Assembly: GCF_026107415.2 (NCBI RefSeq) | Contig: NZ_JAPCHX010000006.1 | Coordinates: 372,001 to 436,000 of the forward strand | Origin: Microbacterium sp. MPKO10 | Lineage (GTDB): Bacteria > Actinomycetota > Actinomycetes > Actinomycetales > Microbacteriaceae | Length of the DNA stretch: 64,000 nt | Direction of reading: 5' to 3' | Shown here: piece by piece, positions 37,852 through 46,802 of the stretch | How positions within the stretch are numbered: position 1 is the stretch's first letter | Layout: the number at the start of each line of letters is the position of its first letter | Notes under the pieces: model-generated | Told to the model about the DNA's origin: nothing | Seen by the model: only the letters and a program-made list of their open reading frames with translations | Database searches by the model: none | Made by a program: the position numbers and the translations under genes

Positions 37852-39528
37852 CTAGACGAGGGTGCCCTCTCTCATACTGAATCGTCGGTCGATCAGCGGC
37901 GCGGGAACATCATCATGGCTGATCACGATGATGCTTCGCCCTGTTGACGTCGCTGCCGTGATCAGATCGCGCAGCAGAACGCCCGCTCGCGCAGCATCCA
38001 CATTTGCCGTCGGCTCATCGAGAACAAGGATCGGGAAGTCACGCAGAAGCGCCCGGGCGAGCGACAGACGCTGAGCCTGCCCACCGGAGACAAGTGCTCC
38101 GCGTTCACCCACCCGAGCATCGAGTCCCCCGCGTGCCGCGACCCAGTCGCCGAGCCCGACCTGGTCGAGAATAACGAGAAGCTCCTCGTCCGTCGCTGTG
38201 TCGCGCGCAAAGAGCAGGTTCTGCCTGACGCTGTCGTCAAAGAGATATGGATGCTGTTCGCACAGCCCCACCGTGGCATGCACATCGCCGAGGCTCCGTG
38301 CCTCGACTCCCCCGATGCGGTAGCTGCCGCCGTATTCCAAGAACCGCACGAGCACATTCGCGAGCGTGCTCTTGCCGGAGCCGCTGCTTCCCTCGATGAG
38401 AACGGACTCGCCAGGCTCGACAACGAGGTCGACGTCGGTCAGCGCGTTTTCCTCCGCGCCGGGCCAGCGCGCCGACACCCCCTGCAACGTCAGACGCGTG
38501 TCTGTCGGAGCACTTGTACCCGTCGGGGCACCGCCCTCGCGAGGGATCTCGACGGGCAGTTCCTCCGGCAGGGTCGCCGCAAGGCGGTCGGCGCTGGAGC
38601 GCACGGCTCGCCAGTGATTCACCGCCACAGGGATCGTGCCGATCACCTCGAAGATGGCGAGCGGTGTGAGCGCAATGACGGCGAAGACCGGGCCCCCAGT
38701 GCCGTCGGGCATGACGAGCGTGGAGCCGACGCTGATCGCTCCGACGACGGCCAAGCCCGTCAGCAGGGCGATGATGGCCGCACTCAGTCCGAACCCGCTC
38801 GCGCGGCGCAGCGCGGTTCGCGTCAAACGAGCATCCGCCATGCGGACGCGCTCGCGCGCGGCAGCCTCGGCGCCGTAGTGCACCAGAACGGGGAATCCCT
38901 GCACGTAATCGAGGATCGCACTCGCCAATTCTTCTCGCTTGGGAGCCAGCGACCGTTCCGACGCTCCCGCCACTGTCGACGTCGCCCAGGTGGCTCCGAT
39001 GCCGCAGAGGACGAGAGTGATAGCCAACACGACGGCTGCTGTCGGACTCAGCAGTGCAATGCCCGCGACAGACAGGACCGCGACGGTCACAGCGACAACG
39101 ATCGGCTGCACGACCCGGAGAGACAGATTCTGCAGCTCATCGACGTCAGTGACCACTGCGGTCAGAAGTGAGCCGCGAGAACGGTCTGTGAGACCTGCGG
39201 GGGCACGAGGGATGAGGCGCCGGAGGACGTCGGTGCGCAGGGAGGCGAGCTGCCGGAAAACCGCATCGTGGCTGTACAGCCGCTCGAGGTAGCGGAACAC
39301 CGCGCGTGCGAGGGCGAACGCGCGTACGCCGACCGCAGCCATGGTGAGAAACAGCACAGGTGGCTGCTCTGCAGCTCGGACGATGAGCCACGCGCTGGTC
39401 GCCAGCAGCGCCACGATGGCGAGCCCCATCGCGATGCCCGACAGCATCCCAGGCAGCACCTGCCTGAAGCGAGGAAGTGCACGACGGAGGATGCGACGGC
39501 GCTCACGCACATCGGCTGTGCTGGTCAT
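37852..39528 (-). CDS. cydC: Heterodimeric ABC exporter subunit CydC
   Basis: 558 residues from ATG 39528. Six membrane segments are followed by an ATPase domain: Walker [16 protein letters not shown], signature [16 protein letters not shown], Walker [13 protein letters not shown], and H-loop VISHDDV. With CydD it forms the inner-membrane transporter (thiols and/or heme) needed for assembly of cytochrome bd. The start overlaps the cydD stop as ATGA, which rejects a longer upstream reading. Confidence 0.94.
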
Positions 39529-41162
39529 ACGAGAACCTCCGCCCGATCGCCGATCGTGATGCACTCGTCCGCCCATTCGACGAGCGCGGGCCGGTGACTG
39601 ACGACGATCACGCAGGCGCCTCCAGCCGCGAGCTCGCGCAGACCGCGCGCGACGATCTGCTCAGTGCGCCGGTCGAGTGCCGACGTGGGCTCGTCTAGGA
39701 CGATGATGTGCGCCCCGAAGCGCTGTGCACGGTAATAGCACCGAGCAAGTCCGACGCGCTGTGCCTCACCGCCGGACAGCCCCATACCCGCTGTTCCCAG
39801 ATTCCGGTCCAGTTTGATATCGCCAGCCGCCGCTCGTTGGAGCGCCCGCTCGGCCTGCCGCACATCGGGCGCCGGGTCTCCGAGTGTGACGTTGCTGAGG
39901 ACAGTTCCGGCCTGAAGGGCAGGGTTTTGCGGCGCCCAGGAGAGCCACGAGCGCTCCCCTGGGCTCACGGCCGTCATGTCGACACCACCCACATGAACGC
40001 TGCCCGTGTGCGGGGTGAGCCCGGCGATCACACGCAGGAGTGTCGATTTGCCTGCTCCGCTGTCGCCGGTGATGGCGAGGACGCTTCCGCACCGAGCGCG
40101 CAAGCTCTGATGTTCGAGAACAGCTGTCTCGTCACGCACCACGGTGACGTCGCGCAGTTCAAGATCTCCAGATGCTGACAGAGAGGCACACTGGGGCTCG
40201 GGGGCGGCCTCCGCAGCGTCGAGGATCTCGAACGCATCCTGCGATGCCTCCACGCCCTCGGCTGCCGCGTGGAAGTGTGTGCCCACCTGTCGGATGGGCA
40301 AAAACACCTCGGGCGCGAGAAGCAGCACGAAGAGGCCGACGGTCAGCGGAATCGCGCCATCGACGAGCCGGAAGCCGATGGAGACGGCGAGCAGCGCCAC
40401 AGACAGGCTGGCCATGAGCTCGAGAACGAAGCCGGAGAGAAACGAGATGCGCAGGACGGCCATTGTCGAGCGTCGGTAGTCATCGGTGATCGAGCTCATG
40501 CGGTCGATTTGCCGCTTCTCCCGCCCGAAGACCTTGAGCGTCGACAACCCACCGACCACATCGAGGAATGATGCCGACAGACGGTTCAGGCCGTCCCATT
40601 GACGCCGTTGAACGGTGCGCGTCGCGAGTCCGATGAGCACCATGAAGATCGGGATGATCGGCAGAGTGACAAGAAGAATGATGCCCGAGAGCAGGTCCTG
40701 CCCGAAGACGACAAGAGCGAGCGCGGGGAGCGTGATCGCCGTGCGGATCAGCTGGGGAAGGTAGCGGGCGAAATAGTCGTCGAGTGCGTCGAGACCGTGC
40801 CCCAGCAGCGTTGTCAGACGTGCGGACTGTGTGTTCTCGAGCCACTCGGCTCCGAGTCTTGGCAGTGCTGTGAGAACGGTCATGCGCAGCTCGCTCTTGG
40901 CGCGCGCGGCCCCTCGTGCGCCTGTCGCCTCGGTGCCCCAAGACAGCAGGGCGCGGGCGGCTGCGCAGGCAGCGATGCCGCCAAGAGACGGCGCGAGCTC
41001 CTGCCACGACGCCCCGTCGATGATGTGAGTGAGTGAAGCAGTCACGCCCCAGGCGAAACCGATGATCGCGAGCGTGTCGGCCAGTGCGAGCACGGCGCCG
41101 AGAACGAGGAAGCCTCGAGACGACCTCGCGTAGCGCAGCAGGCGGGGGTCAAGCGGCCGCAT
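39525..41162 (-). CDS. cydD: Heterodimeric ABC exporter subunit CydD
   Basis: 545 residues. The membrane domain has the six-helix exporter layout with FMVLIGLATRTVQRRQWDGLNRLSASFLDVVGG. The ATPase has Walker A TGDSGAGKSTLLRVIAGL, signature GLSGGEAQRVGLARCYY, Walker B IIVLDEPTSALD, and H-loop VVSHRPA. It overlaps cydB by 14 bp and cydC by 4 bp, so all four cyd genes are one operon. Confidence 0.95.
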   Translation of the reverse strand: MRPLDPRLLRYARSSRGFLVLGAVLALADTLAIIGFAWGVTASLTHIIDGASWQELAPSLGGIAACAAARALLSWGTEATGARGAARAKSELRMTVLTALPRLGAEWLENTQSARLTTLLGHGLDALDDYFARYLPQLIRTAITLPALALVVFGQDLLSGIILLVTLPIIPIFMVLIGLATRTVQRRQWDGLNRLSASFLDVVGGLSTLKVFGREKRQIDRMSSITDDYRRSTMAVLRISFLSGFVLELMASLSVALLAVSIGFRLVDGAIPLTVGLFVLLLAPEVFLPIRQVGTHFHAAAEGVEASQDAFEILDAAEAAPEPQCASLSASGDLELRDVTVVRDETAVLEHQSLRARCGSVLAITGDSGAGKSTLLRVIAGLTPHTGSVHVGGVDMTAVSPGERSWLSWAPQNPALQAGTVLSNVTLGDPAPDVRQAERALQRAAAGDIKLDRNLGTAGMGLSGGEAQRVGLARCYYRAQRFGAHIIVLDEPTSALDRRTEQIVARGLRELAAGGACVIVVSHRPALVEWADECITIGDRAEVLV

Positions 41163-42168
41163 GAGCGTCCACGTCCTCGGGAATATGGTCTCGTGATACG
41201 CGTTTCCGAAACACCCAATATGTCCACCCCTGATACAGCAGGATGAGCGGTACAGCGAACAGAGCGATCCAGCTCATGACCTCGAGTGTGTAAGGCGTCG
41301 ACGAGGCGTTCGCGATTGTGAGGCTGTTCGCCGGGTCGTTTCTCGCGGGCATGACCGCGGGGAAGAGCGCGGTGAACAGCGTGAGCACGGCCCCGGCAAT
41401 CGTTGCTGCCATGCCGGTGAATGCCAGGCCTTCGCGGCCCAGCACATTCGTCAGTATGGCGCTCACAAGCAGTACCGCGGTGACGATCGCCAGAATCACC
41501 ACGGCTCCTGTGCCGTGTTCGATGACAGTCCAGCCAAGGAAGGCGACGGCCAGGAGAGCCGTGATGATCCCGGAACGGGTCGCGAGCGTCCGTGCTCGAG
41601 CCCGGATCGTGCCATCGGTCTTAAGAGCGATGAACACGATGCCGTGCGTGAAGAACAGCAGAAGCGTCGTGAGCCCGCCGAGAAGCGCGTAGGGGTTCAG
41701 CAGATCCAGGATGCTCCCGATGAAATCGTGGTTCTCATCCAGGGGAACCCCGTGCACGATGTTCGCGAACGCGACACCCCAGAGCAGCGCGGGCACAGCT
41801 GATCCGAACACGATCATCGCGTCAAAGCGCCGCTTCCACGATTTCTCGGGGCGCTGGTGACGGTACTCGAAGGACACTCCTCGGAGAATGAGCGCAACGA
41901 GAATGAGGAGCAGAGGCAGGTAGAAACCACTGAACAGCGTCGCATACCACTCGGGAAAAGCCGCGAAGAGCATAGCGCCGGCGACGATGACCCATGTCTC
42001 ATTGAGATCCCACACGGGGCCGATGGTGTTGATCAGCACGCGCCTGTCGGTATCGTCGCGCCCGAGAAACGGTAGCGACATGCCGACGCCGAAATCGAAG
42101 CCATCGAGGACGAAGTATCCGATGAAGAACGCGGCGATGACCCAGAACCACACAACTGTCAGATCCAT
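41149..42168 (-). CDS. cydB: Cytochrome bd ubiquinol/menaquinol oxidase subunit II
   Basis: 339 residues with about nine membrane helices. It starts MDLTVVWFWVIAAFFIGYFV and contains LDGFDFGVGMSLPFLGRDD, INTIGPVWDLNETWVIVAGAM and the conserved C-terminal YQGWTYWVFRKR. It pairs with CydA in the quinol oxidase that reduces O2 at low oxygen tension. AGGAG lies 7 nt before the ATG. The gene lies 8 nt after cydA. Confidence 0.96.
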   Translation of the reverse strand: MDLTVVWFWVIAAFFIGYFVLDGFDFGVGMSLPFLGRDDTDRRVLINTIGPVWDLNETWVIVAGAMLFAAFPEWYATLFSGFYLPLLLILVALILRGVSFEYRHQRPEKSWKRRFDAMIVFGSAVPALLWGVAFANIVHGVPLDENHDFIGSILDLLNPYALLGGLTTLLLFFTHGIVFIALKTDGTIRARARTLATRSGIITALLAVAFLGWTVIEHGTGAVVILAIVTAVLLVSAILTNVLGREGLAFTGMAATIAGAVLTLFTALFPAVMPARNDPANSLTIANASSTPYTLEVMSWIALFAVPLILLYQGWTYWVFRKRVSRDHIPEDVDAHAAA

Positions 42169-42176
42169 GACTACTC

Positions 42177-43586
42177 CTAGTACACCGTTACGCGGGCAGC
42201 GGGCTCGCGCGAATCATCGTCTGTCGAAATGGGCTCTGGCCCGGCATGCACTGCTTTGAGGATGAGCCGGAATTCCACGACGGCGAGGGATCCGTACACG
42301 AGAGTGAACGCCACGAGCGAAATCAGGACGGTCAACCCGGACACCCCAGGAGACACGCCGTCCTCTGTCTTCAGCAGACCGAAGACCAGCCACGGCTGCC
42401 TGCCCATCTCGGTGAAGATCCATCCGACACTCATCGCCAGCAATGAGGCGGGGAATGACCAAATGGCCGCCCTCCAGACCCACGGGTTTTTCGGCATCCG
42501 GCCCTTGCGGGTCAGCCAGAGGCCGACGACAGCCACCACAATGTGCACGACGCCGAGTCCGATCATCCAGCGGAACGACCAGTAGGTGATCCAGATGATC
42601 GGTGCGTAGTCCCCGGGACCAAAGACTCCTTGATAGGCGGCCTGAATATCGTTGATCCCCTCGACTGTGCCGTCAAGCGAATGAGTCGAGAGCAGGGCGA
42701 GCAGATACGGCACGCGCACCGAGAACAGTTCGTGTACGCCGTCGGGTGTGCCGAGTGTGAAGATCGAGAATGAGGCGTCGGCACCGGATGCTGTCGTGTA
42801 CAGCGCTTCGGCTGCCGCCATCTTCATCGGCTGCGCCTCCACCATGGCCAGGCTCAACTGATCGCCCATGAGTGCGGTTCCCGCTCCAGAGATCACCATG
42901 GTCCAGAGCCCGAACTTCAGTGCCGGGCGCATCGTCTCGATGTTCTTTCCGCGTGCCAGGTGCCAGGCGGCGACGGAGATCACGAGGCCAGCAGAGACCA
43001 TGAAGCACGCGAAGATGGTGTGCGGGAACGCTGCGAGAGCAATGGGATTCGCCAGCAGCTCACCCAAGCTGGTGAGCTCAGCGCGGCCCTTCTCCTCGTT
43101 GATCGTGTATGCGATCGGATTCTGCATGAAGGCGTTCGCAGCGATGATGAAATAGGCGGAGACCACCGTGGCCACAGCCGTCACCCAGATCGTTGCCAAG
43201 TGCAGGCCGCGCGGAAGTCGGTCCCAGCCGAAGATCCAGAGTCCGATGAACGTCGCCTCAAGGAAGAACGCCAGAAGTGCCTCGAGAGCGAGTGGCGCGC
43301 CGAAGACGTCTCCCACAAAGCGCGAATAATCCGACCAGTTCATCCCGAATTGAAATTCTTGAACGATTCCCGTAACAACGCCCATGGCGAAGTTGATCAG
43401 AAAGATCTTTCCGTAGAAATGGGTCAGCTGCAGATACTCGAGCTTTCCCGTTCTCACCCACACGGTCTGGAAGATGGCGACGATCGTTGCCAATCCGATC
43501 GTGAGAGGGACGAAGAGAAAGTGATACAACGTCGTCAGCCCGAACTGCCAGCGCGAGAGAACAAGCGGATCGAGGAACTGTTCCAC
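42177..43586 (-). CDS. cydA: Cytochrome bd oxidase subunit I
   Basis: 469 residues from GTG 43586, which has GGAGG 6 nt upstream (the longer reading is leader). It carries LSRWQFGLTTLYHFLFVPLTI with the heme-ligand His, the GRQPWLVFGLLKT signature near the C-terminus, and a short Q-loop, as in actinobacterial and Bacillus enzymes. It catalyses quinol oxidation and O2 reduction at hemes b558, b595 and d. First gene of cydABDC; transcribed away from a BlaI-type repressor gene with four operator palindromes in between. Confidence 0.96.
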   Translation of the reverse strand: MEQFLDPLVLSRWQFGLTTLYHFLFVPLTIGLATIVAIFQTVWVRTGKLEYLQLTHFYGKIFLINFAMGVVTGIVQEFQFGMNWSDYSRFVGDVFGAPLALEALLAFFLEATFIGLWIFGWDRLPRGLHLATIWVTAVATVVSAYFIIAANAFMQNPIAYTINEEKGRAELTSLGELLANPIALAAFPHTIFACFMVSAGLVISVAAWHLARGKNIETMRPALKFGLWTMVISGAGTALMGDQLSLAMVEAQPMKMAAAEALYTTASGADASFSIFTLGTPDGVHELFSVRVPYLLALLSTHSLDGTVEGINDIQAAYQGVFGPGDYAPIIWITYWSFRWMIGLGVVHIVVAVVGLWLTRKGRMPKNPWVWRAAIWSFPASLLAMSVGWIFTEMGRQPWLVFGLLKTEDGVSPGVSGLTVLISLVAFTLVYGSLAVVEFRLILKAVHAGPEPISTDDDSREPAARVTVY

Positions 43587-43610
43587 CGACGACCTCCACA
43601 AGCTAGTGAC

Positions 43611-43627
43611 TTCTACAATATGTAGAA
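43611..43627. promoter_or_regulatory. Operator copy 1 (cydA-proximal)
   Basis: TTCTACA ATA TGTAGAA, a perfect palindrome 25 nt upstream of the cydA GTG. Confidence 0.8.
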
Positions 43628-43635
43628 CCGAGCAT

Positions 43636-43652
43636 TTCTACACAGTGTAGAA
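43636..43652. promoter_or_regulatory. Operator copy 2
   Basis: TTCTACA CAG TGTAGAA, a perfect palindrome. Confidence 0.8.
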
Positions 43653-43659
43653 CACATTC

Positions 43660-43676
43660 TTCTACAATGTGTAGAA
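43660..43676. promoter_or_regulatory. Operator copy 3
   Basis: TTCTACA ATG TGTAGAA, a perfect palindrome. Confidence 0.8.
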
Positions 43677-43682
43677 CTTGTT

Positions 43683-43699
43683 TTCTACTGCCTGTAGAA
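43683..43699. promoter_or_regulatory. Operator copy 4 (repressor-proximal)
   Basis: TTCTACT GCC TGTAGAA, one arm mismatch; ends 30 nt before the repressor ATG. Confidence 0.75.
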
Positions 43700-43717
43700 G
43701 CTTCGGCGAAAACCGCG

Positions 43718-43723
43718 TATCCT
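43718..43723 (+). promoter_or_regulatory. -10 box of the BlaI-type regulator gene (leaderless)
   Basis: TATCCT followed by 6 nt and the ATG at 43730. Operator copy 4 overlaps where the -35 element would be. Confidence 0.5.
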
Positions 43724-43729
43724 GGTCGT

Positions 43730-44113
43730 ATGGCAACTCTTGGAGATCTTGAACGCTCAGTGATGGACGTCCTCTGGACATCACCTGAGCCGCTCAGCGC
43801 TGGTGATCTGAGGGACCGGCTCGTGTCCTCGGCGGCTGGTGCGACGCGCCGTCAGCTGGCGGCCACGACCGTACTGACAGTGCTCTCGCGTCTTGAATCA
43901 AAGGGGTTCGTGTCGCGCAACCGCATGCACCGTCCTCACCTGTACGAAGCAGTGACGACGCGTGCCGACCACACGGCTGAGCTCATGCACGAGGTTCTCG
44001 GGGCCTCTCAGGACCGCGAAGCTGCACTCGCGCGCTTCATCGGCCAGGTCTCCCCGTCCGAAGCCGAAACCCTTCGCGCGCTGCTGAGCAGCACGACGCT
44101 TCCCGCCAAGTAG
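43730..44113 (+). CDS. BlaI/MecI/CopY-family transcriptional repressor
   Basis: 127 residues from ATG 43730. The winged-helix domain has LGDLERSVMDVLWTSPEPLSAGDLRDRL, then ATTVLTVLSRLESKGFVSRNR, the standard BlaI helix-turn-helix and wing. The C-terminal helices for dimerisation (DHTAELMHEVLGAS) follow. In BlaI/MecI systems a partner membrane peptidase of family M56 leads to repressor cleavage; here that partner is the next gene, 16 nt downstream. Four matching operators lie between this gene and cydA, so the cyd operon and the repressor gene itself are its likely targets (inference). The start fits a -10 box 6 nt upstream. Confidence 0.93.
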   Translation: MATLGDLERSVMDVLWTSPEPLSAGDLRDRLVSSAAGATRRQLAATTVLTVLSRLESKGFVSRNRMHRPHLYEAVTTRADHTAELMHEVLGASQDREAALARFIGQVSPSEAETLRALLSSTTLPAK

Positions 44114-44116
44114 CCG

Positions 44117-44122
44117 TATCCT
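44117..44122 (+). promoter_or_regulatory. Possible -10 box of the M56 peptidase gene (leaderless)
   Basis: TATCCT followed by 7 nt and the ATG at 44130; it lies in the 16-nt gap after the repressor stop. Confidence 0.35.
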
Positions 44123-44129
44123 GAGTGCG

Positions 44130-45050
44130 ATGGTTCTCGCCTCTGCGCTCCTCGCCATACTCGCTTTCGCTCTGGCCTGGCCCGCCCCGATACTGCTTGC
44201 CCGAGCGGCATGGCCCTCGCGAGCGCCCGCCGTCGCGCTGGTGGTCTGGCAGGCCATCGCCATCGCCGGTGTGCTGTCCACCCTCGGCTCTCTCATCACG
44301 TTTGGCCTCTCGGGAGTTGCAGACACCCTCACCGCCGGGCTCACCCGACTCACGGAAAGTGTCGCGACAGGCGGCAGCCCCGCGGGCCTCGGTGCGCTCC
44401 ACATCTTCGCGCTCTGCTGCGCCGTCCTGTTCTCGGGGCATCTCATGCTCAGCGTGCTGACGACAGTCATTCGCACTGAGCGAGAGCGTCGGCGTCAACA
44501 CGATCTGGTGACGCTGCTCAGCGCTCCGGCGAGCACGGTGCCCGGTGCCCGGGTCATGGAGTATCCGGCGCCTGTAGCCTATTGCCTGCCCGGCGCATTC
44601 CGCACAGCGACGGTCCTCACCGACGGGCTTGTCAAAGCGTTGAGCCCTGACGAGCTCGCGGCTGTGCTGGCCCACGAGCGCGCTCATCTGACACAGCAGC
44701 ATCACCTTCTCCTCCTGGCCTTCCGTGCCTGGCGCAAGGCCCTTCCCTGGTTCCCCATCGCCACCCGCGCCAGTGACGCTGTCGGACTCCTCGTCGAAAT
44801 GCTCGCTGACGATGCCGCGCGCTCCGAGTCCTCAGCTGAATCTCTCGTCTCAGCCATTGTCACGGTGGCCACGGGCGGCGGAAGCTCTCCCGATGTCGGT
44901 GTTGCCGATGCCACGCCGGAGTCCGCCGCTCCGCGCGTGACCCGGCTTCTGACCGAACATCCCCCGCTGCCTTCCGCCACCGTCGCTGCCGTCCTCATGA
45001 GTGCTGTCGTGCTCGTTCTCGTGCCCCCAGCCCTCCTTCTCGCAGCCTGA
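44130..45050 (+). CDS. M56 family membrane metallopeptidase (BlaR1-like, no sensor domain)
   Basis: 306 residues. Membrane segments lie at about 1-20, 35-60 and 88-112, and one closes the C-terminus (ATVAAVLMSAVVLVLVPPALLL). The zinc motif HERAH is at 182-186, preceded by ALSPDELAAVLA, as in BlaR1/MecR1 and CAAX-like M56 peptidases. The cytoplasmic loop includes RTERERRRQHD. Unlike BlaR1 there is no penicillin-binding sensor domain after the last helix, so the signal is not a beta-lactam bound there. Paired with the upstream repressor gene; the pair is expected to control the cyd operon. Confidence 0.9.
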   Translation: MVLASALLAILAFALAWPAPILLARAAWPSRAPAVALVVWQAIAIAGVLSTLGSLITFGLSGVADTLTAGLTRLTESVATGGSPAGLGALHIFALCCAVLFSGHLMLSVLTTVIRTERERRRQHDLVTLLSAPASTVPGARVMEYPAPVAYCLPGAFRTATVLTDGLVKALSPDELAAVLAHERAHLTQQHHLLLLAFRAWRKALPWFPIATRASDAVGLLVEMLADDAARSESSAESLVSAIVTVATGGGSSPDVGVADATPESAAPRVTRLLTEHPPLPSATVAAVLMSAVVLVLVPPALLLAA

Positions 45051-45079: not shown

Positions 45080-45805
45080 GTGAACGATCTCCTTGACGGC
45101 ATCTTGAGCGCGGTGCAAGACGTTGATCCCGTCCTGCGGACGATCATCGCTGGAGTCGCGATCATGCTTGAGACGAGCATCCTCGTCGGGCTCATCGTCC
45201 CCGGAGACTCGATCGTCATCGTCGCCAGCACAGGGGTTGCCACTCCGCTTCAGTTCATCGCGATGTACTGCGTTGTCGTGGTCGGCGCTCTCATCGGGGA
45301 GAGCATTGGCTTCGCCCTCGGGCGATACTTCGGCGACTACATCCGGCGCTCCAGACTAGGGCGACGCATTGGGGAGCACAATTGGGAGCGTGCAGAACGC
45401 TACCTGCAGCGACGCGGCGGCATCGCTGTCTTCCTCTCGCGGTTTCTGCCGGTCTTTCACTCGATCATCCCCCTCACTGTCGGGATGAGCTCGATGAGAT
45501 ACCGTCGCTTTCTGGCGTGGACAGTGCCCGCGTGTCTCATCTGGACGGGTGCGTACGTAACTGTCGGCTCGGCTGCCGCCGAGACTTACCGGGAGCTCTC
45601 CGAGCGACTGCACTTCGCCGGCTATGTCTTCGTCGGCATCATCGCTGTTTTCCTGTTGCTGGCCTGGCTGATCAAGAAGATTCTGCATCGCCTGGAGCGC
45701 CGGCATATGGTGCAACCGCAGCCGCCGAACACCTCGCGCGATCGCGATGCTGACGACAACGTGACAGGATTGACGGATGCCCCGCACCGAGATGAGTCCG
45801 CCTGA
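45080..45805 (+). CDS. DedA/SNARE-associated family membrane protein
   Basis: 241 residues. The VTT domain is clear: ETSILVGLIVPGDSIVIVAS, GESIGFALGRYFGDYIRRS, and FLSRFLPVFHSIIPLTVGMSSMRYRRF with the conserved membrane-embedded Arg/Pro region. Four to five membrane segments and a hydrophilic C-terminal tail. DedA proteins move polyprenyl phosphate or phospholipids across the membrane and affect envelope integrity. GTG start with a leaderless -10. The last 29 bp overlap the next gene in another frame. Confidence 0.92.
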   Translation: MNDLLDGILSAVQDVDPVLRTIIAGVAIMLETSILVGLIVPGDSIVIVASTGVATPLQFIAMYCVVVVGALIGESIGFALGRYFGDYIRRSRLGRRIGEHNWERAERYLQRRGGIAVFLSRFLPVFHSIIPLTVGMSSMRYRRFLAWTVPACLIWTGAYVTVGSAAAETYRELSERLHFAGYVFVGIIAVFLLLAWLIKKILHRLERRHMVQPQPPNTSRDRDADDNVTGLTDAPHRDESA

Positions 45806-46802
45806 GCCCGAGCGCATTCACCGTGCGGCACGGCTCGATGACGCATTTCTCGCGTGGCGAGCGAAACGGGCGATCAAACGGGGCTTAGAGCCCACAGCAG
45901 TCACGTACACGGGGTATGGGTCGACCACCTGGGTTCGCGTGCTGGGGCGGGTGCTCTACACTCACCGGGGCCGAGAGAAGGAAGCGACGAGTCGCACACG
46001 AGGATGGCGCAGCTTCACCAGCATCCCCGTGGTTTCCAGCGCCGTCACCATTGACATCGCCGGCACGCGGCATGAAGTCGTTGCCGACCGAGGAGGAGTC
46101 ATCGACGCGGTGATCTCCGCCGAGATGGAGCCGGGCTGGCAGACGATCCAGATGTCTGCACAAGGCTCCGACCCGGTGACAAGTGACGTCTACATCGTCG
46201 ATCCAGACACGCGTGTTGGCGTGATCTCAGACATCGATGACACCGTCATGGTGACGGCACTGCCGCGCCCTTTCGTCGCCGCGTGGAACACTTTCGTCCT
46301 TGACGAGCACGCGCGCACGCCCGTCCCGGGAATGGCGGTGCTCCTCGACAGACTGTCGCGGATGAACGGCGGCTGCCCTGTCATCTACCTCTCCACGGGC
46401 GCATGGAACATCGCTCCCGCGATCACCCGGTTTCTGTCGCGTCATCTGTATCCCGCCGGTGCGCTCCTGCTGACGGATTGGGGGCCAACGCACGATCGGT
46501 TTTTCCGCAGCGGCCGAGAGCATAAGCATGAGAGCTTGCGCCGTCTCGCGAACGAATTTCCCGACATCAAATGGATCCTTGTTGGAGACGATGGCCAGCA
46601 CGACGAGGAGTTGTACTCCGCTTTCGCTTCCGAGCTGCCCGACAATGTCTCTGCTGTGGCAATCAGACAGCTGTCCGCTGGTGAAGCAGTTCTCGCCGGA
46701 GGCCGCTCCAAGCACGAGCAGCGCGACGCCGGCCACACCTGGGTGTACGCACCTGACGGCGCGGGCCTTCTGAGCGAGCTGAACGATATCCTCTCCGACT
46801 GA
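45777..46802 (+). CDS. App1-like phosphatase domain protein (DUF2183)
   Basis: 341 residues. The C-terminal half has HAD-like catalytic motifs: VISDIDDTVMVT (DxDxT), IYLSTGAWNIAP, and ILVGDDGQHDEELY. This matches the App1/DUF2183 conserved domain, whose yeast member is a phosphatidate phosphatase. The N-terminal half is a beta-rich domain. No signal peptide is seen. It overlaps dedA by 29 bp, so a role in lipid turnover together with DedA is possible but unproven. Confidence 0.88.
   Translation: MPRTEMSPPEPERIHRAARLDDAFLAWRAKRAIKRGLEPTAVTYTGYGSTTWVRVLGRVLYTHRGREKEATSRTRGWRSFTSIPVVSSAVTIDIAGTRHEVVADRGGVIDAVISAEMEPGWQTIQMSAQGSDPVTSDVYIVDPDTRVGVISDIDDTVMVTALPRPFVAAWNTFVLDEHARTPVPGMAVLLDRLSRMNGGCPVIYLSTGAWNIAPAITRFLSRHLYPAGALLLTDWGPTHDRFFRSGREHKHESLRRLANEFPDIKWILVGDDGQHDEELYSAFASELPDNVSAVAIRQLSAGEAVLAGGRSKHEQRDAGHTWVYAPDGAGLLSELNDILSD

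Follow-up and report, generated by a model that had tools for sequence, protein, structure and literature searches.

The window analysed here, a 64,000-nucleotide stretch of the 3.75-Mb genome of Microbacterium sp. MPKO10, carries the genes for a cytochrome bd oxidase and, divergent from them, a gene encoding a repressor of the BlaI family with the gene for a membrane protease close behind it. The named near relatives of the genome are Microbacteriaceae. The principal features of the locus, including four predicted operators, are as follows (nt, nucleotides; aa, amino acids; ABC, ATP-binding cassette).

37852 to 39576, minus strand: cydC, thiol/heme ABC exporter subunit, required for cytochrome bd assembly (TIGR02868, 513.7 bits, cut-off 329)
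39525 to 41162, minus strand: cydD, partner ABC exporter subunit, its reading frame overlapping cydC (TIGR02857, 554.5 bits, cut-off 435)
41149 to 42168, minus strand: cydB, cytochrome bd oxidase subunit II (PF02322, E=2e-108; TIGR00203 above cut-off)
42177 to 43586, minus strand: cydA, cytochrome bd oxidase subunit I (PF01654, Cyt_bd_oxida_I, E=1e-156)
43611 to 43627, no strand: operator 1, cydA-proximal, predicted palindrome, TTCTACAATATGTAGAA
43636 to 43652, no strand: operator 2, predicted palindrome, TTCTACACAGTGTAGAA
43660 to 43676, no strand: operator 3, predicted palindrome, TTCTACAATGTGTAGAA
43683 to 43699, no strand: operator 4, blaI-proximal, predicted, at -47 from the blaI ATG, TTCTACTGCCTGTAGAA
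43718 to 43723, plus strand: TATCCT, a -10-like hexamer beginning 12 nt before the blaI ATG
43730 to 44113, plus strand: blaI, BlaI-family winged-helix repressor, 127 aa (PF03965, Penicillinase_R, E=6.5e-20, 72.1 bits, cut-off 22.6)
44130 to 45050, plus strand: BlaR1/M56-like membrane zinc metalloprotease, 306 aa, with HERAH and E223/D227/D228 and no extracellular sensor domain

CydA, CydB, CydD and CydC, identified by Pfam and TIGR models, all lie in a single minus-strand run and form a cydABDC operon, from which blaI diverges. The first-pass annotation of this DNA had described cydA-cydB-cydD-cydC opposite a BlaI-family gene with a membrane peptidase gene 16 nt behind, and all of these genes were recovered; it had also remarked that no beta-lactamase adjoins the pair, which holds, the two PF13354 proteins of the genome being encoded elsewhere. 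The most likely start of cydA, judged from a GGAGG (Shine-Dalgarno sequence) in front of it and from the protein N-terminus, is the GTG at 43586; the open reading frame reaches back to a TTG at 43601. For blaI the listed frame begins at 43667, a start that was rejected because the longer frame runs through the operators, and the ATG at 43730 was taken, giving the N-terminus MATLGDLERSVMDVLW...

The Penicillinase_R winged-helix domain extends across the full repressor, as is characteristic of BlaI and MecI, and its profile matches the PDB structures 2G9W, 1SD6, 1OKR and 1SD4, the nearest being BlaI of Mycobacterium tuberculosis (2G9W). Residue F103 is invariant in 21 aligned repressors and aligns with Phe102, which stands at P1' where Staphylococcus aureus BlaI is cleaved.

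Pfam places the partner protease above the cut-off for M48 and below that for Peptidase_M56 (21.4 versus 31 bits); among 36 relatives, the M48 match is found in all 36 and an M56 match at E<=0.001 in 20. The HEXXH motif, E223 and D227-D228 are invariant in 36 sequences, and the predicted catalytic site is that of the BlaR1/MecR1 metalloproteases (HEXXH with a downstream Glu). An AlphaFold model made with 36 sequences (predicted local distance difference test, pLDDT, 93), superseding an earlier 7-sequence model with weak matches (pLDDT 73.5), has as its best structural match residues 1-289 of BlaR1 (Z 11.9, 222 aligned residues, root-mean-square deviation 5.8, model residues 5-264), followed by ZMPSTE24 and other M48 proteases. 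In Foldseek on its own, Ste24/ZMPSTE24 (M48) came before BlaR1 (E 0.006-0.04), the second structural comparison putting BlaR1 first; given the Foldseek ranking, we regard the protease as M48/M56-type by fold. Of the earlier label, a BlaR1-like M56 peptidase, the likeness to BlaR1 stands in the predicted structure, but the M56 assignment does not stand in Pfam. The penicillin-binding sensor domain of BlaR1 was not found in the 306-aa model, in which only one C-terminal helix follows the match to BlaR1 1-289. Across 145 loci the protease gene is close behind blaI (median gap 7 nt; 17 overlap by 4 nt; 136 of the 145 within 60 nt), and HEXXH is kept in 144 of these.

Predicted operators in the cydA-blaI gap and their conservation

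The gap between the start codons of cydA and blaI measures 143 nt (43587-43729) and holds four near-identical palindromes of 17 base pairs (bp), a feature on which the first-pass annotation was silent. Their consensus is TTCTAC-N5-GTAGAA, and they start at 43611, 43636, 43660 and 43683, at spacings of 25, 24 and 23 bp. Dinucleotide-preserving shuffles of the window give an expectation of 0.32 matches with at most three mismatches; five were found, four of them inside 89 bp. Perfect copies number seven in the whole genome, of which four are in this gap, and the shuffle expectation and this rarity together rule out a chance origin of the palindromes. As with BlaI and MecI repressors, the predicted dyad operators occupy a divergent promoter shared with the putative target, an arrangement kept in relatives. 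The -47 position of operator 4 is shared with many relatives; occupancy by BlaI would mask the blaI -35 region, so that autorepression may be expected. The position of the -10-like hexamer suggests a nearly leaderless blaI transcript, and 29 of the 80 named loci have a TANNNT sequence between -12 and -14. A generic bacterial promoter scan returned one weak sigma-70-like match over the operators and was set aside as uninformative for a high-GC actinobacterium.

Among 60 genomes drawn from Microbacteriaceae, 20 besides the source encode a BlaI at least 54% identical, and in every one of them blaI and cydA diverge from a gap containing operators; these include perfect copies in 19, the remaining genome having degenerate copies in the gap. 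The best 80 blaI orthologues from the GTDB collection came from Microbacteriaceae and Micrococcaceae (Cryobacterium, Leifsonia, Mycetocola, Arthrobacter, Pseudarthrobacter and others), and 79 of them are divergent from cydA, the exception belonging to a metagenome-assembled genome. Two or three perfect operators are present at 78 of these loci and one at the other two, with neighbours mostly 23-25 bp apart. A search of relatives for the BlaI-M56 pair beside cyd, as the first-pass annotation had suggested, thus finds it linked in nearly every case, and the refuting condition set there, a pair separate from cyd in the majority of relatives, does not hold.

At 23 loci in family genomes devoid of this BlaI clade, where cydA is nevertheless of the same type (61-77% identical), no perfect operator was found within 400 bp upstream of cydA, and there were only two near matches (11/12 and 10/12); all seven comparison cydA loci having this BlaI carry at least two perfect copies (Fisher p=5e-7 against 0/23, uncorrected for kinship).

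The pairing extends deeper. Sampling across the order and the class brought up more BlaI proteins, of 41-57% identity, that adjoin cydA, and none below about 40% identity does; counting the close orthologues too, pairing with cyd was seen in at least ten families of the class, and in another family BlaI is also beside cydA but on the same strand. The half-site differs by BlaI lineage, being TTCTAC near the source genome and TACTAC or TACGAC elsewhere. In a tree built from 94 BlaI proteins, whose deep forks are only moderately supported, the cyd label needs 7 changes versus 27 in shuffles. The cydA genes beside BlaI fall into at least three types: one is 74-86% identical to MPKO10 CydA, one about 40-45%, and the remainder have other or lower values; since the cydA type changes at least four times along the BlaI tree, the switch appears to have been retained while the oxidase type differs. 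At a locus of another family, a BlaI-M56 pair with a 49%-identical BlaI adjoins, as read from its sequence, a glyceraldehyde-3-phosphate dehydrogenase gene rather than cyd.

Further operator sites and the candidate regulon

The regulon scans were pattern searches, in which degenerate sites may be missed. Given that about half of the source-genome list at one mismatch or fewer is expected by chance (13 matches versus 6 in the control), weight was given to perfect sites and to those recurring at one gene in two relatives (pta, and the L011/L137 gene described below). A perfect site lies 38 nt upstream of pta-ackA in the source genome and 37 nt upstream of pta in G001, of the same genus (L048:4700-4716 and L141:5697-5713), and would tie acetate overflow and substrate-level ATP to the cyd repressor. 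Another is right before atpB of the ATP synthase, after atpI, and the seventh is upstream of a helix-turn-helix regulator. In G001 a flavohaemoglobin gene is preceded by two sites, another two separate a narK-like/NarG-like run from moaB, and a gene with a multicopper oxidase gene behind it has one site 21 nt upstream; its orthologous-looking counterpart in the source genome has, at 22 nt, a site with one mismatch. The similar membrane protein genes at L011:340-1517 and L137:3885-5139, which have no Pfam match and an operator 21-22 nt upstream, are perhaps, with the multicopper oxidase behind in one genome, a nitrogen-oxide respiration unit. Two relatives, G007 and G040, have an operator before ctaC (cytochrome aa3 oxidase), and G040 has one before atpB. 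In many relatives the cyd-blaI gap is the only location of perfect sites. The theme of the genes bearing these predicted operators is respiration and ATP supply.

M. tuberculosis BlaI (2G9W) sits on the tree among the cyd-linked repressors, together with that of locus L279, where a gnd-like reading frame lies downstream. Two mycobacteria-like genomes of the M. tuberculosis family, in which blaI does not adjoin cyd, both have TAC[G/T]AC-N5-GT[A/C]GTA 31-40 nt before cydA, and both have sites of the same TAC[G/T]AC type upstream of atpI-atpB and before blaI; this pattern is noisier (5 versus 1 and 7 versus 5 in the control), and only targets matched in both genomes were used. From the tree and the predicted atpB and atpI sites, the MPKO10 locus would share with the mycobacterial regulon an orthologous repressor and an ATP-synthase promoter target. 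M. tuberculosis BlaI is reported to bind the ATP-synthase (Rv1303) promoter (PMC12565901) and, as stated in one paper, also the cyd promoter (PMC5473688, citing Sala et al., 2009). The sites before cydA and atpI-atpB in the mycobacteria-like genomes agree with this published binding. The targets in the abstract of the Sala study are reportedly the ATP-synthase locus, blaC, blaI-blaR and two membrane-protein genes, and the cyd claim needs checking. In M. abscessus under clofazimine, cyd and ATP-synthase transcripts rise together (PMC8765290), consistent with a common repressor.

Two BlaI loci stand apart. The source genome encodes a second BlaI-M56 pair (L050:6382-7602, contig C5 near 536429), of a separate BlaI branch, beside CopD-like copper genes and a TetR-like regulator, and the genome pattern search found no TTCTAC-N5-GTAGAA beside it. 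L076, a 1.6-Mb relative without cydA, has a 33%-identical BlaI divergent from copper-handling-like genes and a Dyp-type peroxidase gene, as read from its sequence.

A proposed respiratory switch and its alternatives

We favour, with a probability of about three in four, the interpretation that the pair is a respiratory or energy repressor acting on cyd and relieved by its protease partner, including by cleavage upon respiratory or membrane disturbance; most likely it switches respiration genes rather than antibiotic resistance. Control of cytochrome bd by the pair, proposed at first pass, now draws strong support from features of the DNA: the predicted tandem operators, the linkage across families, the lack of operators where the repressor is missing and the respiration-centred candidate regulon. 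Control of cyd by BlaI at the level of DNA can be called a well-supported prediction, and proteolysis of BlaI by the partner protease is likely; the peptidase may, as also proposed at first pass, be a respiration or redox sensor.

From operators, conservation and regulon, and from the fold and catalytic motif of the protease, we infer the following course of repression, signal and cleavage. Dimeric BlaI would bind the tandem TTCTAC-N5-GTAGAA operators, two to four in number and probably cooperatively, silencing cydABDC and its own blaI-protease operon; in Microbacterium it may also repress or modulate pta-ackA, the ATP-synthase operon and a few others. The membrane protease, which has no beta-lactam sensor domain, would detect impaired respiration or a disturbed membrane and then cleave BlaI near the C-terminal R102-F103 site, whereupon the low-proton-yield bd oxidase would be expressed.

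Several points weigh against this interpretation. The case for MPKO10 itself rests on sequence, and the linkage counts overstate independence because the genomes are related. The P1 residue at the aligned cleavage position is Arg (R102), whereas S. aureus has Asn (Asn101-Phe102). Repressing ATP synthase along with cyd is not obviously what an oxidase switch needs, and some of the extra sites adjoin genes without a respiratory link. Two perfect TTCTAC-N5-GTAGAA sites (L076:7541-7585) stand at the distant BlaI beside copper-type genes, so a motif match alone is no proof of which BlaI binds.

It is also conceivable, though we think it unlikely, that the pair mainly senses cell-wall or beta-lactam stress, as proposed for M. 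tuberculosis BlaI-BlaR, and that bd is induced as antibiotic tolerance. The mycobacterial BlaI is a described repressor of blaC, with a regulon that connects beta-lactams to ATP synthase and cyd (PMC5473688, PMC12565901), and a further gene lies behind the protease here:

45080 to 45805, plus strand: DedA/VTT membrane protein gene (PF09335, E=2e-25), starting 29 nt after the protease gene

The kinship of DedA/VTT proteins to undecaprenyl-phosphate carriers makes a link to the envelope state possible. The gene is possibly an additional member of the blaI-protease operon, in some relatives only: it directly follows the protease gene in four of the nearest relatives but is not widely kept at the locus. 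The protease, however, matches only BlaR1 residues 1-289 and is devoid of the extracellular beta-lactam-binding domain; no operator with at most one mismatch was found near the two PF13354 beta-lactamase-family genes of the source genome; and the operators precede energy genes, the target promoter being that of cydABDC rather than of a beta-lactamase or PBP2a gene as in the Bla and Mec systems. Overlapping the 3' end of the DedA gene is a reading frame for a protein with an APP1-type phosphatidate phosphatase domain (45777-46802), and then comes a gene for an AlkZ-like DNA glycosylase.

Less probable again is a scheme in which BlaI represses cyd and a ligand or other regulators lift that repression, while the M56 protein leaves BlaI uncleaved and acts on another substrate. 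Against it stand the close position of the protease gene behind blaI in nearly all loci and the retention of HEXXH (see the 145 loci above); in its favour, we found no demonstrated cleavage for any sensor-less actinobacterial pair, the P1 residue is unlike that of S. aureus, and the mycobacterial protease, likewise without a sensor, has an unexplained input (PMC5473688).

The pair might instead sense copper, the copper-free bd oxidase being derepressed when the copper-dependent aa3 oxidase is unsupplied or poisoned. CopY repressors share the fold family, the second BlaI-M56 pair of the genome is beside CopD-like genes, two relatives have the ctaC operator, and L076 joins the motif to copper-handling-like genes. 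Against these stand the separate branch formed by the copper-type BlaI and a match of our repressor to the CopY model (TIGR02698) that is weak and far below the cut-off. Moreover, there are no cysteines among its 127 residues, so it cannot be a Cys-x-Cys sensor of the CopY type and any copper sensing would fall to the protease; we judge this scheme very unlikely.

Finally, that the repressor controls only itself and the protease, with cydA a coincidental neighbour, is barely credible: autoregulation alone could suffice in most relatives, where perfect sites occur only in the shared gap, but the divergent linkage is kept through at least ten families and through replacements of oxidase type, operators stand at cydA in two mycobacteria-like genomes with blaI elsewhere, and cydA has none where BlaI is missing.

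There is also a wider proposal, which we put forward tentatively and at somewhat less than even odds: that control of respiration and energy, not beta-lactam resistance, is the ancestral job of a large actinobacterial BlaI-M56 branch that includes M. tuberculosis BlaI-BlaR, and that the protease, lacking a sensor domain, responds directly to the condition of the respiratory membrane, be it the redox state of the quinones, the proton-motive force, nitric oxide or lipid carriers. We know of no respiratory-membrane signal of this kind for the BlaR1 family. Were the proposal true, a family annotated across actinobacteria as a penicillinase regulator would be a switch for ATP synthase and for cytochrome bd, an oxidase of drug tolerance; there would be a simple account of why M. 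tuberculosis BlaI, paired with a protease unable to bind beta-lactams, controls energy genes; and what sensor-less M56 proteases detect would become testable in tractable soil bacteria, the cyd promoter with its two to four operators serving as a strong reporter.

Comparison with known systems

The first-pass annotation was unsure whether this circuit had been described. It is not wholly undescribed, the parts being known and the mycobacterial relative, with BlaI at the ATP-synthase promoter and, in one paper, at cyd, having been studied already; we found, however, no description of a cyd-linked BlaI-M56 pair outside mycobacteria in the open-licence literature, where neither a conserved cyd-BlaI-M56 locus bearing tandem operators nor the idea of respiratory control as the original role of this branch appears to have been described.

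M. tuberculosis BlaI-BlaR (Rv1846c-Rv1845c) resembles the MPKO10 pair in providing the nearest solved structure, in its region of the tree and in having a protease without a sensor domain (PMC5473688); among its targets are the ATP-synthase operon (PMC12565901) and, as stated in PMC5473688, cyd. It differs in that it does not adjoin cyd, in its half-site (TAC[T/G]AC, as opposed to TTCTAC here) and in being named for control of blaC, for which MPKO10 has no corresponding operator. With BlaI-BlaR1 and MecI-MecR1 of S. aureus the pair shares an operon that encodes both a winged-helix repressor and a membrane zinc metalloprotease and points away from the target, the fold of the transmembrane protease part of BlaR1 and a conserved Phe at the aligned cleavage position, whereas the penicillin-binding sensor domain is absent, the predicted target is a respiratory oxidase, and the operator is TTCTAC-N5-GTAGAA in two to four copies. 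The CopY/TcrY copper repressors belong to the same Penicillinase_R fold family and also have autoregulated operons, but the MPKO10 repressor scores far below their cut-off and has no cysteines, its partner is a protease and its predicted target is cyd. Other regulators of cyd are Rex in Streptomyces, SigC and HrrSA in Corynebacterium, and ArcA and Fnr in Escherichia coli. These too place cytochrome bd under the control of redox, haem or respiratory state, but they are soluble redox factors, sigma factors and two-component systems, whereas the MPKO10 locus would rely on a repressor destroyed by a membrane protease.

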